A stretch of 46,863 nt of DNA from the NCBI GenBank assembly GCA_903837555.1, contig CAILUV010000081.1, forward strand, positions 1-46,863, in the 5' to 3' direction. The DNA is from an uncultured Alphaproteobacteria bacterium (GTDB lineage: Bacteria; Pseudomonadota; Alphaproteobacteria; Micropepsales; Micropepsaceae). Made by a program: the position numbers and the translations under genes. Positions within the stretch are counted from its first letter, which is position 1; every line of letters begins with the position of its first letter. A model generated the notes under the pieces. It did no database searches. It worked only from the letters and a program-made list of their open reading frames with translations, and had not been told where the DNA came from. Positions 490-18,724 of the stretch are shown piece after piece.

Positions 490-798
490 TTACTTCTTCG
501 AAGCCTTGCGGCCTTCCAGCACGCCCATGATGTCGCTCTCCTTCATGATGAGGAGTTCTTCGCCATCGAGCTTCACTTCGGTGCCCGACCACTTGCCGAA
601 CAGCACATAGTCGCCAGCCTTCACGGTGGTGGGGACCAGCTTGCCGTTATTGTCGGGGGCGCCGGGGCCAACCGAGATGACTTCGCCTTCCTGGGGCTTT
701 TCCGCGACAGTGTCGGGAATGATGATGCCGCCTGCGGTCTTCTGATCTTCCTTGATGCGGCGGACCACGACGCGGTCGCCAAGCGGACGGAACTTCAT
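490..798 (-). CDS. groES: Co-chaperonin GroES
   Basis: A 102-residue lid subunit that caps the GroEL ring. The sequence reads [12 protein letters not shown] at the start and has the [16 protein letters not shown] mobile loop and a C-terminal half typical of the family. The start at 798 is preferred over an upstream in-frame ATG at 843 because AGAGG lies at normal distance and the family begins MxFRPLxDRV. The longer start would also place the hairpin at 829-844 inside coding sequence. It is the first gene of the groESL operon. Confidence 0.97.
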
Positions 799-828
799 GA
801 GAATCCTCTTTCTAAGAGATTGAATTTG

Positions 829-844
829 CTTGGTTTTAACCAAG
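829..844 (-). promoter_or_regulatory. Hairpin in the groES leader
   Basis: A perfect inverted repeat, CTTGGTT-TT-AACCAAG, lies between the CIRCE operator and the groES start codon, so it would be in the 5' untranslated RNA. It is AT-containing and only 7 bp long, so it could melt with heat or protect the message. Its function is not known to me. Confidence 0.4.
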
Positions 845-846
845 TT

Positions 847-873
847 TCAGCACTCGCCCCTCTTGAGTGCCAA
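847..873 (-). promoter_or_regulatory. CIRCE operator (HrcA binding site) of groESL
   Basis: The inverted repeat TCAGCACTC-N9-GAGTGCCAA matches the CIRCE consensus TTAGCACTC-N9-GAGTGCTAA with one difference in each arm and the exact 9-base spacer. CIRCE is bound by the heat-shock repressor HrcA. Its position directly downstream of the -10 box and upstream of groES is the usual arrangement. hrcA itself is not in this window. Confidence 0.92.
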
Positions 874-886
874 GCGCCGTGACCGG

Positions 887-2925: not shown

Positions 2926-3393
2926 ATGTATCGAGCCCTTGTTCCTGCGCTGCTGGGTGCGGCCGTGCTTTCCGCCTGCTCTCACGAAACCAAAACCGCC
3001 GCTGCCCCCGACATTGCGCCGTATGTCTCGACCCGCGAGGCCGATCGCATCGAATATGCGGTGCCCAACCACCTGCTGTTCGCGACCGACTCCTCCGAAG
3101 TGCTGCCCACCGGGCACAAGATTCTGGAAGCCATTGCTGGCGCCGCCAAGCGCCGCGGGGCCGCGCCCATCGAAGTGGCGGGCTATGCCGACACGGTTGG
3201 CCGCAAGACCTACAACCAGAAGCTTTCCGAGGAGCGCGCGCAGGCGGTGGCCAGCGAACTGGCCGGCAACGGCGTGGAAGCGGCGCGCATCACCACGCGC
3301 GGCTATGGCGAGAGCGAATTGGCGGTGGCGACCCCCAACAACACCGACGAGGCCAAGAACCGCCGCGTCGTCGTGCGCATCGCCAGCAATTAA
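2926..3393 (+). CDS. OmpA-family peptidoglycan-associated lipoprotein
   Basis: A 155-residue lipoprotein. The signal peptide ends in lipobox LSAC with the lipidated cysteine at residue 18. The C-terminal OmpA domain (about 48-155) has FATDSSEVLP, the D in GYADTVG and the R in LSEERAQAV, which in this family contact meso-diaminopimelate of peptidoglycan. It would tether the outer membrane to the wall. It resembles Pal, but there is no tol cluster nearby, so I do not call it pal. A GAGGAG site precedes the start. The stop codon overlaps the CtrA box of the following gene. Confidence 0.9.
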   Translation: MYRALVPALLGAAVLSACSHETKTAAAPDIAPYVSTREADRIEYAVPNHLLFATDSSEVLPTGHKILEAIAGAAKRRGAAPIEVAGYADTVGRKTYNQKLSEERAQAVASELAGNGVEAARITTRGYGESELAVATPNNTDEAKNRRVVVRIASN

Positions 3394-3405
3394 CCTTCTC
3401 TTAAC
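3390..3405 (+). promoter_or_regulatory. CtrA box upstream of the tipF-like gene
   Basis: TTAA-CCTTCTC-TTAA followed by C is an exact match to the CtrA consensus TTAA-N7-TTAAC. It lies 88 bases before the EAL-protein start and overlaps the stop codon of the OmpA-family gene. CtrA is the cell-cycle and flagellar master response regulator of alphaproteobacteria. Confidence 0.7.
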
Positions 3406-3492
3406 CGGCGGGGCGCCTTGGAATAATCAAGCGGCCCCGCCGGATTTTCATAGTTAAGGAATTGGAAACGGTGGGCGGTGAGAATCACCGTC

Positions 3493-4752
3493 ATGACCGA
3501 CCGCATTTCCACCATCACCCGGATTCTGCTGAATCTCAGCATGTTCTTCGTCTGCGCCACCATCGCGGCGGCGCTGGCGCTGTTCGCCGGCTGGCCGGTG
3601 GCCATCCTGTCGGGGATTGTGAGCTTCATCGCCATCCAGCAGGTCATGACCGGCTTCGCCCGCCGGCGCGACAAGCGCGCGGTGGCCCGGGAGCTGGCGC
3701 ATCTGCGCAAGAGCCATCTGGAATTTGAAACCGCCATCCACGAGACCCGTTCGCGCCTGAACGATCTGGGCGGGCTGATCGAGGAGCGCACCTCCAGCCA
3801 GAGCAAGAAGATTGTCGCCGAGCTGAAAGTGCTGGAAAGCCTGATGCGCGATTTCGCGGGCAAGATTTCACGCACCGCCGCCACCACCGCCGCGCCGGAA
3901 CAAAAGCCGCAGCGCGGTCCCGCATCCGCGTATCTGAATACGCTGGGGGAAAAGGGCGAGCTGCTGGAAACCATCCGCGCCAGCCTGGAAGAAAACCGCG
4001 TCGACCTTTGCCTGCAGCCCATCGTCAGCCTGCCGCAGCGCAAGCTGCGCTATTACGAAGCGCTGTCGCGCCTGCGCGCCGAAAATGGCGACGTCATCAT
4101 GCCTGCCCAGTACATGCAGGTTGCGGGCGCCGCCGGCTTGATGAGCGTGGTGGACAACCTGCTGCTGTTCCGCTGCGTGCAGATCGTGCGCCGCCTGACC
4201 CAGAAGAACCGCGACATCGGCATCTTCTGCAACATCTCCGGCGAGACTCTGGCCGACAAGGAGTTCTTCCCGCAGTTCATTGAGTACATGCAGACCAACC
4301 GCGACCTGGCGGGACAGATAATTTTCGAATTCAGCCAGGATGCGGTGCTGCAGGCCGGCATCGAGGGCGAGAAGAACCTGACCTCGCTGGCGACCATGGG
4401 CTTTGCCCTCAGCATGGATCATGTCGAAAGCCTGAAGCTGGATTTCTTGCGCCTGAAGGCGATCGGGTTCCGCCACCTGAAAGTGCGCTCCTCGACCCTC
4501 ACGCGCGGCATGACCGGCGCGGGCGCCTATGTGGCCGCCGAAGACTTCAAGAAGCTGCTGACCCGCCACGGCCTGAACCTGATCGCCGAGCGGGTGGAAG
4601 ACGAAAAGACCGTAGTGCAACTGCTGGATTACGCCGTGGACTATGCCCAGGGCTATCTGTTCGGCGAGCCGCGCGCGGTGCGCGAGGATTCGCTCAAGCC
4701 CATCAGCGCGCTGGAACCGGCGGCGATTATTCCCTTCCGGAAGGCGGGCTGA
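3493..4752 (+). CDS. Membrane-anchored, degenerate EAL-domain protein, TipF-like
   Basis: A 419-residue protein with two N-terminal membrane segments (about 12-32 and 36-52), a coiled coil (about 60-125) and a C-terminal EAL domain (about 165-400). This is the layout of TipF, the c-di-GMP-binding flagellar assembly factor of Caulobacter. EALSR (189-193), N248, E279, D309, K330 and QGYLF (386-390) are present. The usual DDFG has become DHVE, so the second Asp is His310 and hydrolysis is doubtful; binding rather than cleavage of c-di-GMP is likely. A perfect CtrA box lies upstream. I chose the ATG at 3493; a GTG at 3478 adds five residues, and neither has a strong ribosome site. It heads a housekeeping run. 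Confidence 0.82.
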   Translation: MTDRISTITRILLNLSMFFVCATIAAALALFAGWPVAILSGIVSFIAIQQVMTGFARRRDKRAVARELAHLRKSHLEFETAIHETRSRLNDLGGLIEERTSSQSKKIVAELKVLESLMRDFAGKISRTAATTAAPEQKPQRGPASAYLNTLGEKGELLETIRASLEENRVDLCLQPIVSLPQRKLRYYEALSRLRAENGDVIMPAQYMQVAGAAGLMSVVDNLLLFRCVQIVRRLTQKNRDIGIFCNISGETLADKEFFPQFIEYMQTNRDLAGQIIFEFSQDAVLQAGIEGEKNLTSLATMGFALSMDHVESLKLDFLRLKAIGFRHLKVRSSTLTRGMTGAGAYVAAEDFKKLLTRHGLNLIAERVEDEKTVVQLLDYAVDYAQGYLFGEPRAVREDSLKPISALEPAAIIPFRKAG

Positions 4753-16345: not shown

Positions 16346-18379
16346 ATGAAACATCTCTTTCTCTTTCTGGCGTTGCTGGTCGCCGCGCCGGCCTGGGCGC
16401 AGGACGACAGCCCCAAGGTGCAGGCCCGTCTGGTCGCGGAAGACACAGCGGTGGCGCCGGGCGGCGGCATCACCATCGCGCTGGAAGAGCTGATTGCGCC
16501 CGAATGGCATACCTATTGGAAGAACCCCGGCGATGCCGGCGCTCCCACGACAATCGAATGGACCTTGCCGCCGGGCTGGATGGCCGAGGCGATCCAGTGG
16601 CCACGTCCCAAGCGGGTGCCCGTCGGCCCGCTGATGGATTACGGCTATGAAGGCAAGCTCTGGCTGCTGAGCAGGATCAACGCGCCCGCAGACGCCAAGC
16701 CGGGTGAGACCGTCACCATCAAGGCGGCGGCAAGCTGGCTGGTATGCAAGAACATCTGCATTCCCGAAGAACGCAACCTGAGCATCACGGTGCCGGTCGG
16801 CGCTTCCGCGCCTGACCCCGCCGTGGCGAAGGATTTCGCCGATGCGCGCGCCCTGCTGCCTGCGCCATCGCCCTGGAAAATCGTCTATGCCCATGGCCAA
16901 ACGCTGGACCTGTATGTCGCCGCACCAAGCCTGGTGGCGGCGCGGCCCAAAAGTGCGGACTTCTTTCCGGCGCGCGCGGGCCTGATCAAGAACCCCGCGC
17001 CGCAGCTTGTCGGCTTTGCCAAGGACGGGCTGGTGCTGCGTCTGACACCCGGCAACAAGGTCGCTGCGCCGGTGGAAGGGCTGCTGGTTCTCACCTCCAC
17101 CGATGGTTCGGTGCAGGCGCTGGAGGTGAATGCGCAAGCTGGCACAGTACCGGCGGCGGAATTTGTCGCGCCGGCCGCGGCGGAAGGCGATCTCACACTG
17201 TGGCTGGCGATCCTGTTCGCGGTGCTGGGCGGGCTTATCCTGAACGTGATGCCGTGCGTGCTGCCGATCCTGGCGATGAAAGCGCTGGCATTGGCCCAGC
17301 ATGGCACCGAAGGCCGCCGCGAAAGCTTTTCGTATGCGATGGGCGCCATCGTTAGCTTTGCTGCGCTGGGCGGGGCGCTGTTGATTTTGCGCGCGGGCGG
17401 CGAGGCGATCGGATGGGGCTTCCAGTTGCAATCGCCGGTGGCGGTGGCGGGTTTCGCGCTGCTGGTGTTCGCGGTCGGTCTCAATCTGTCGGGCCTGTTT
17501 GAAGTCGGATCGATCACGGCGGGCGAAGGGCTGACGCGCAAGAGCGGAGTCGCCGGCGCCTTCTTCACCGGTGTCTTGGCCGTGGCGGTCGCCGCGCCCT
17601 GCACCGCGCCTTTCATGGCGGCGGCACTCGGTTTCGCGTTGGCGCAAAGCGCGCTGGCAGCCTTGGCGATCTTCGTGGCGCTGGGCGTGGGCTTTGCGCT
17701 GCCCTTTATCTTGCTGGGCATCTGGCCGCGCGCCTTGTCCTTCCTGCCCAAGCCGGGCCCCTGGATGCTGCGGCTTAAGCAGTTCCTGGCCTTCCCGATG
17801 TACATGGCCGCCGCCTGGCTGGTCTGGGTGCTGGCGCAGCAGGCCGGTCCACGCGGCGTCGCCATCATTTCGGCGGCGATAATTTTCGTGGCGCTGGCCG
17901 CCTGGCTGTGGAGCACAACCCGCGAATTTTCGGCGCGTGGCCGCATGATCGGCGCCGTCGCGGCAGCTCTGGTTTTGATGGGGGCGCTTTGGGGTGTCAG
18001 TCAGTTAAGCGGTGCCACGCCTGCGGTGGCTACGGAAGTGGCGCGCGGTGAGGCCTATAGCGCCGCCAAGCTGGCGTCGTATCGGGCGGAAGGGCGCCCG
18101 GTGTTCCTTGACGCCACCGCCGCATGGTGCATTACCTGCCTGGTCAATGAAGAGGCCGTGCTGTCCAAGGCTCCAGTGCAAAACGCCTTTGCCGCGAAGA
18201 ATGTCGTCTACATGGTCGCCGACTGGACCAACCGCAATCCGGAGATCACGGCGTTGCTCAAGGAGAATGGCCGATCGGGCGTTCCGCTCTATCTCTATTA
18301 CGCGCCCGGCAGCGCCAAGCCGCAGATCCTGCCACAGATCCTCACTGACAACATCGTTCTCAGTGCGCTGAACGGCTAG
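16346..18379 (+). CDS. dsbD: Thiol:disulfide interchange protein DsbD (ScsB-like)
   Basis: A 677-residue inner-membrane protein moving electrons from cytoplasmic thioredoxin to the periplasm. There is a signal peptide (to about AWAQ, 19), then a periplasmic N-terminal domain with a Cys pair (C134, C138 in VCKNICIPEE). A multi-span membrane core carries C304 (MPCVLP) and C419 (APCTAPF), and a C-terminal thioredoxin domain has WCITC (C595, C598). All three redox centres are complete. The large N-terminal domain resembles ScsB-type DsbD more than the E. coli alpha domain. The stop shares a CTAG with the convergent sciP stop. Confidence 0.9.
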   Translation: MKHLFLFLALLVAAPAWAQDDSPKVQARLVAEDTAVAPGGGITIALEELIAPEWHTYWKNPGDAGAPTTIEWTLPPGWMAEAIQWPRPKRVPVGPLMDYGYEGKLWLLSRINAPADAKPGETVTIKAAASWLVCKNICIPEERNLSITVPVGASAPDPAVAKDFADARALLPAPSPWKIVYAHGQTLDLYVAAPSLVAARPKSADFFPARAGLIKNPAPQLVGFAKDGLVLRLTPGNKVAAPVEGLLVLTSTDGSVQALEVNAQAGTVPAAEFVAPAAAEGDLTLWLAILFAVLGGLILNVMPCVLPILAMKALALAQHGTEGRRESFSYAMGAIVSFAALGGALLILRAGGEAIGWGFQLQSPVAVAGFALLVFAVGLNLSGLFEVGSITAGEGLTRKSGVAGAFFTGVLAVAVAAPCTAPFMAAALGFALAQSALAALAIFVALGVGFALPFILLGIWPRALSFLPKPGPWMLRLKQFLAFPMYMAAAWLVWVLAQQAGPRGVAIISAAIIFVALAAWLWSTTREFSARGRMIGAVAAALVLMGALWGVSQLSGATPAVATEVARGEAYSAAKLASYRAEGRPVFLDATAAWCITCLVNEEAVLSKAPVQNAFAAKNVVYMVADWTNRNPEITALLKENGRSGVPLYLYYAPGSAKPQILPQILTDNIVLSALNG

Positions 18380-18657
18380 TGCAGCGTGCTTTCGCCGCGC
18401 CGCGGACTGGCGGATGCGCGCAGGCCTGCCAGCCCTTCGCTTTCATAGTGACGCTCCCATTCCAGAAATTCGTCGCTGGAAATGGAATAGCGGGCACAGG
18501 CTTCCGGCATCGTCAGCAATCCGCCTTTGACGGCGGCGATCACCTCGGCCTTGCGGCGGGCAACCCAGCGTTTGAGATGTACGGGTGGCAGGTTTGCCAG
18601 TGTCAGGATCGAGCCATCCGGTCCGATCACATGCGCGGGCTGTTTGTTCTCTCTCAT
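18376..18657 (-). CDS. sciP: CtrA inhibitor SciP (DUF1153)
   Basis: A 93-residue helix-turn-helix protein. The conserved features are VIGPDGSILTLANLPP, then WVARRKAEVIAAVKGGLL and the HTH ACARYSISSDEFLEWERH. This matches SciP, which binds CtrA in Caulobacter and blocks it from activating its promoters in G1 cells. The start at 18657 is chosen because GGAG lies just upstream and the length equals the family's; an in-frame ATG at 18684 would fall inside the upstream palindrome. The leader carries nested inverted repeats and a CtrA-like box. Confidence 0.9.
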   Translation of the reverse strand: MRENKQPAHVIGPDGSILTLANLPPVHLKRWVARRKAEVIAAVKGGLLTMPEACARYSISSDEFLEWERHYESEGLAGLRASASPRRGESTLH

Positions 18658-18661
18658 GCGG

Positions 18662-18720
18662 CTCACTCCAGAGTGCCGCCCCAACCCCGCAAGCTTAAAG
18701 CCTGCGGGGTTAAGAGTGAG
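18662..18720 (-). promoter_or_regulatory. Nested inverted repeats upstream of sciP
   Basis: An outer pair, CTCACTC (18662-18668) and GAGTGAG (18714-18720), encloses a 29-base palindrome, AACCCCGCA (18683-18691) and TGCGGGGTT (18703-18711), with inner GCTT/AAGC. It starts five bases before the sciP start codon and includes its ribosome site. There is no T-run, so it is not a simple terminator. It may be an operator or a leader RNA structure. Confidence 0.5.
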
Positions 18721-18724
18721 TCAA
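18709..18724 (-). promoter_or_regulatory. CtrA-like box upstream of sciP
   Basis: On the minus strand it reads TTGA-CTCACTC-TTAAC, one mismatch from TTAA-N7-TTAAC. It lies about 52 bases before the sciP start. sciP is a CtrA-activated gene in Caulobacter, so a site here is expected. Confidence 0.5.

Follow-up and report, generated by a model that had tools for sequence, protein, structure and literature searches.

What controls the tipF-like gene that follows an OmpA-family lipoprotein gene near one end of contig CAILUV010000081.1, a stretch of 46,863 nucleotides (nt; hereafter the window) from an uncultured bacterium of the family Micropepsaceae? An earlier note on this DNA had singled out a perfect CtrA box, TTAA-N7-TTAAC, at the end of the lipoprotein gene. 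We find that the most conserved promoter element is not this distal box but a second, proximal CtrA-type box (3454-3469) that the note had overlooked. The explanation that we favor, at a probability of about 0.7, is that the intergenic region is a CtrA-dependent tipF-like promoter, ancestral in origin and stranded after a recent loss of the flagellum. Below, G000 denotes the genome carrying the window and other G numbers denote genomes among 96 of the same family.

We searched for tipF in the 96 family genomes and collected the DNA upstream of 70 loci with whole orthologs (G086 was left out); 69 were usable for the promoter scan (L041, with no upstream DNA, was dropped), 51 from the genus and 18 from other genera. 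The proximal box, TTAAGGAATTGGAAAC, begins 39 nt before ATG 3493 and combines a full left half with a degenerate right half. Its pattern, GTTAA-N7-NNAA, precedes 65 of the 69 tipF relatives of the family, against about 0.5 in shuffled sequences; within the stretch from -130 to +30 it is found in 49 of the 51 genus promoters (shuffle mean 0.33) and in 16 of the 18 from other genera (shuffle mean 0.17). Among 37 more distant loci, taken from a different collection, 24 have it in the same stretch (shuffle mean 0.35), the positive records being titled Parvibaculum, Rhodobiaceae, Hyphomicrobiales and others. The distant loci came from the best 80 matches in that collection, tipF relatives being recognized by search match, and 13 of 50 were dropped because they lay on contigs of the family set, were more than 50% identical, or were truncated or partly aligned; 10 of these 13 show the element too. 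Opposite-strand counts were 12 (genus), 1 (other genera) and 4 (distant), in part because perfect boxes are palindromic. Conservation extends to columns outside the search pattern, with GG before TTAA in 46 and 49 of 50 genus promoters and TT at +8 and +9 in 48 of 50 each; the 65 rows of this alignment were selected with the search pattern, which leaves no room for variation in its TTAA and AA columns. By motif, the promoter carries a close variant of TTAA-N7-TTAA in addition to the perfect distal box.

The position of the proximal box is what would be expected of an activating site. Across 50 genus promoters, A is conserved at +28 (34/50) and T at +32 (38/50) from the start of the box. The window has G and C at these columns and fits only with a hexamer one base earlier, GAGAAT, our predicted -10-like element. 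From this we infer that in G000 and its closest relatives tipF transcription starts on the ATG or no more than one or two bases away from it, which would put the box at -39 to -24, over a -35 region whose placement follows from the predicted -10 and start. This fits the geometry of Caulobacter, for which PMC4287350 describes full CtrA motifs and activating half motifs near -35, with TTAA-N7-TTAA at -39 in ctrA P2 and TTAT-N7-TCAA at -32 of a leaderless gene. The likeness to such CtrA-activated promoters covers the TTAA-N7 element, the placing of its 5' base near -39 relative to the expected start, and a box near the SciP gene (PMC4287350); here, the right half is degenerate, the start is predicted and the target gene is tipF. 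By analogy with the published geometry, activation would fall to the proximal box. The Caulobacter pilA promoter, according to PMC11264516, has four CtrA sites and likewise combines one at -35 with others upstream, but there the -35 site (site 1) comes closest to consensus and those upstream are degenerate, whereas in the present promoter the perfect box is the upstream one and the degenerate box the one near -35. In 13 of 50 genus loci (L013-L072), 22-24 nt separate the proximal box from the first ATG; in many others the distance is about 40-50 nt, and leader length seems to differ between lineages.

The downstream gene is, by sequence, a full-length TipF relative, as the earlier note had recognized in calling its product a TipF-like EAL protein. 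Residues 12-406 align to positions 3-401 of the 421-position NCBIfam TipF model NF051880 with 349 bits. This falls under the curated cut-off of 600 bits; three other family members tested (G039, G016 and G012) score 347-358 even though FlhA, flagellin and rod proteins are all present in each of their genomes, so the model may be drawn too narrowly to cover this family. E194, N252, E284, D314, K335, E371 and Q391 are invariant in 16 alignment rows, and the EAL domain is degenerate in having H after D314, where active EAL enzymes have D. The open frame extends upstream to include GTG 3478, but near relatives have ATG 3493 in common as the start.

Parts of the CtrA circuit are encoded in the genome: CtrA, ChpT and a SciP-family protein. 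The earlier note had staked its proposal on the presence of a ctrA homolog, and G000 contains one on contig C82, matching NF045991 with 421 bits against a cut-off of 350 and 79% identical to Caulobacter CtrA. ChpT is present as well, and a perfect palindromic box lies 55 nt before its open reading frame (ORF) and also directly before an inositol-monophosphatase-family ORF on the other side. The SciP-family gene, in the window, is preceded by a one-mismatch box, TTGACTCACTCTTAAC. This site (18710-18724) is the only other window match to TTAA-N7-TTAA at one mismatch, a looseness at which 1.33 matches are expected. Boxes of the relaxed class can be seen upstream of ftsK in the sister genome G075 (TTAATGACTTATCAAC, at 162 nt) and upstream of ctrA in G000 (TTAAATGGCGGTAAAC, at 210 nt), as examples rather than controlled counts; both genes are named among CtrA-motif promoters in PMC4287350. 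With CtrA, ChpT and a SciP-family protein encoded and a TipF relative as the next gene, the tipF-like gene is a plausible CtrA target.

We propose that phosphorylated CtrA would bind the proximal box over the -35 region and activate transcription at or very near ATG 3493, yielding an almost leaderless mRNA. The perfect distal box may act as a second, upstream CtrA site, present in one part of the genus and tuning level or timing. The two-box arrangement would have been inherited from flagellated ancestors, and the presumably recent loss of the flagellar machinery in this species would leave the promoter and TipF as a stranded remnant of a flagellar-pole program, with CtrA, ChpT and SciP persisting for other duties. 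Coordinates are collected in Table 1.

Table 1. Features of the tipF-like promoter region and of the sciP locus, in window coordinates
Feature	Position	Strand	Basis
OmpA-family lipoprotein gene, TAA stop within distal box	2926..3393	+	ORF
Distal CtrA box, perfect TTAA-N7-TTAAC	3390..3405	+	pattern scan, ortholog conservation
Terminator-like hairpin separating the two boxes, arms 3405-3414 / 3434-3443, with a T run	3405..3448	+	
Proximal CtrA-type box, full left half, degenerate right half	3454..3469	+	promoter scan, column conservation
Predicted -10-like hexamer GAGAAT	3480..3485	+	genus column conservation
Unconserved GANTC site, GAATC, which overlaps the predicted -10 and may be a CcrM/GcrA site	3482..3486	+	
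TipF-like gene, encoding a hydrophobic segment at the N terminus (by eye), a linker and a degenerate EAL domain	3493..4752	+	profile match, alignment
SciP-family gene (DUF1153, 93 aa)	18376..18657	-	
CtrA-type box, one mismatch, 5' base 67 nt upstream of sciP ATG	18709..18724	-	

Several observations weigh against this explanation. The genus-conserved -10 columns are not matched in register in the window, which carries a GANTC within its predicted -10. The proximal right half is not TTAA but, in the genus, mostly GGAAAC, and the element may thus serve another factor; the relaxed box pattern also falls within ORFs elsewhere. The promoters are related by descent and their counts overstate independence. 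Most of the genus lacks the distal box, its spacing from the proximal one ranges from 33 to 64 bp, and perfect boxes show no clear enrichment genome-wide, either here or in the 96 family genomes. Finally, tipF of Caulobacter is reported as a GcrA target (PMC3667746 and PMC7987155).

The first alternative concerns the distal box alone, and is compatible with our explanation for the proximal one: TTAACCTTCTCTTAAC would be a chance match, without a role, around a stop codon and then a terminator. Indeed, a terminator-like hairpin lies directly 3' of it (the fold of 3395-3460 has a z-score of -4.1). The exact match that the earlier note had described is the sole one in the window, where 0.02 are expected from dinucleotide shuffles. 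In the genome scan that it had suggested, G000 (2.46 Mb, 98.4% complete) had 11 matches, among them a palindromic site that counts twice, and the reversed control had 9; the 96 genomes together gave 1036 against 939, with 57 of the 96 above control. With genome-wide counts so near the control, rarity alone is weak evidence, and the case for the distal box lies in conservation and position more than in rarity. A perfect box precedes tipF in 10 of the 51 genus promoters (window included) and 1 of the 18 from other genera. What argues against chance is that TTAA-N7-TTAA is kept at tipF in the window and in all seven other whole orthologs with at least 78% TipF identity, despite changed spacer bases, at -72 to -88 from the site matching GTG 3478; the final C is present in six of the seven. 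Moreover, in the 140 nt that precede the proximal box, a box that is perfect or has a single mismatch occurs in 22 of 50 genus promoters (a raw count, without shuffle comparison). In 13 of these 22 the spacing is exactly 49 bp (64 in the window). By our tally, 21 of the 22 belong to a single group in the TipF tree (support 88/81) and make up 21 of its 25 rows. We consider a chance match unlikely, though it deserves to be kept in view. The distance of 88 bases to the gene given by the earlier note holds from GTG 3478; measured from the shared start, ATG 3493, the box begins 103 nt upstream and spans -103 to -88. The note was also right that the site includes the stop codon of the OmpA-family gene (TAA, 3391-3393). 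This overlap is kept in G075 and G083 and the upstream sequence differs in the next relatives, so it looks incidental, and we rejected the idea that the distal box is tied to the stop codon.

A second alternative, which we regard as improbable, holds that only the distal box belongs to CtrA and that the proximal element is the site of another regulator or sigma factor, for example the -35 of an extracytoplasmic function (ECF) sigma factor, like GGAAC. The GGAAAC of the genus speaks for it, but in other genera the right half is mostly TAAA, TCAA or GTAA and GGAAAC is not kept. In addition, three distant copies read TTAACCATATATCAAG and contain TTAACCAT, an ungapped CtrA variant quoted in PMC6180460. 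The SigT motif is given in PMC4287350 as GGAAC with CGTT 16 bases on, and by eye the window promoter has no such pair; an ECF/SigT -35 was rejected on these grounds. A third alternative, likewise improbable, is a GcrA/CcrM-driven promoter as in Caulobacter, acting through the GAATC in the predicted -10 with the TTAA elements incidental or another factor's: tipF belongs to the GcrA regulons of both Caulobacter and Brevundimonas (PMC7987155), but no more than 12 of the 50 genus promoters, window included, have a GANTC between 5 nt before the proximal box and 45 nt after it, about the level of base composition by our uncomputed estimate, whereas the TTAA-N7-NNAA element is near universal.

The earlier note had relied on Caulobacter as a precedent for CtrA control; according to PMC3667746 and PMC7987155, Caulobacter tipF needs GcrA and a GANTC site. 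A CtrA-dependent tipF promoter would thus differ from that precedent. The genes belong to one family by full-length model match, the Brevundimonas pishanensis protein being 41% identical over the aligned part, but the latter scores 683 bits with NF051880 against 349 here, and we saw no TTAA-N7-NNAA box at the Brevundimonas locus. With a conserved CtrA-type box and no conserved GANTC, tipF seems to be wired differently here than in Caulobacter and Brevundimonas. Judging by titles and abstract openings, none of the papers listed by our searches deals with control of tipF by CtrA outside the Caulobacterales; PMC9198570 (Rhodobacter) contains both words. In Caulobacter this flagellum-placing factor is made early via GcrA, ahead of CtrA; if relatives do make TipF via CtrA, the order of pole events differs between lineages, a wiring change testable in cultured relatives. 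A broader speculation, distinctly unlikely as a whole, is that control of tipF by CtrA is the ancestral state in several lineages of Alphaproteobacteria, with GcrA taking over in the Caulobacterales, and that CtrA-driven TipF in flagellum-less relatives of Rhizomicrobium, which belongs to the Micropepsaceae, keeps a flagellum-independent job as a polar receptor of cyclic diguanosine monophosphate.

The working CtrA circuit that the earlier note had suggested together with sciP stands as to its parts, but is not supported as a flagellar circuit: searches of G000 found no FlhA, flagellin or rod proteins. Beside ctrA lies a fliI pseudogene (G000:C82:2379-3242, L100) with two in-frame stops and without the C-terminal part, followed by mnmA; the fragment aligns to residues 1-269 of the intact, 443-residue FliI of G039. 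G083 and G074 likewise have a disrupted fliI, though not at the points seen in G000, and in G075 and G081 the homology stops close to a contig end; G075 and G083 retain flagellin and some rod genes. G000 appears to have lost its flagellum recently, and its TipF and promoter look recently stranded.

We scored a genome as flagellated when FlhA was accompanied by flagellin or by three rod matches, or when flagellin and three rod matches occurred together. With completeness of at least 90% and contamination of no more than 5% required, an intact tipF is present in 44 of 46 flagellated genomes, 4 of 10 with no marker (the others being two with a truncated gene and four without one) and 3 of 4 with a partial set; the counts for all 96 are 63/72, 4/17 and 4/7. 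In G074, a deletion removed the promoter and TipF residues 1-244, leaving a remnant that is 97% identical. From these counts, whose Fisher tests treat the genomes as unrelated, and this deletion, tipF tends to disappear together with the flagellum or later than it, and G000 looks like an early stage. G074, G078 and G076 (L091, L092 and L093), all without flagellar markers, have only a 3' tipF remnant joined to the groES side at different points, apparently through separate deletions. The set shows several stages of flagellum loss, including broken fliI, missing flhA and truncated or whole tipF, and these may show how a CtrA regulon is dismantled. Flagellar genes have also been lost in the Caulobacteraceae Acaudatibacter and Phenylobacterium immobile, more than once and with flagellated relatives in the group; these are reported in PMC12700997 to lack tipF, whereas here tipF is whole in G000 and truncated or absent in some relatives.

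Purifying selection on TipF does not prove a flagellum-independent role. The ratio of nonsynonymous to synonymous substitution rates (dN/dS) of TipF among G000, G075 and G083 is 0.11-0.15, but the fliI fragments give 0.11 and 0.13 for G000 against G075 and G083 and 0.22 for G075 against G083, so that flagellum loss looks too recent for this test. Relative-rate counts for TipF in G000 against G075 were 14:11, 23:6, 23:7 and 15:8 with outgroups G039, G072, G054 and G069, and were skewed against G083 with three of the four. The neighboring HAD gene is similarly skewed against G075 (20:5, 12:7) but not against G083 (11:9, 8:9). As the TipF counts depend on the outgroup, we draw no conclusion on relaxed selection, and slightly faster change of TipF in G000 is possible. 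Nor did we retain the idea that G080 and G082 form one long flagellum-less lineage, since G070, which has all flagellar markers, joins G082 in the TipF tree, although the support for this grouping (97/73) is not strong.

Misbinning of the window was considered and rejected. The only full-length isoleucyl-tRNA synthetase match in G000 is on its contig, and the ctrA contig shares its two nearest relatives by identity, G075 and G083; the window therefore looks native. G000 contains a second groES-side neighborhood with a tipF remnant on contig C7 (G000:C7:1-6000, L094), which is 93.7% identical over 2946 bp to G076 and is probably a contaminant. In the window itself, a groES-like ORF (490-798, minus strand, named by eye) has an inverted repeat, GCACTC...GAGTGC, upstream (window 490-880), which we take to be a motif like the controlling inverted repeat of chaperone expression (CIRCE).
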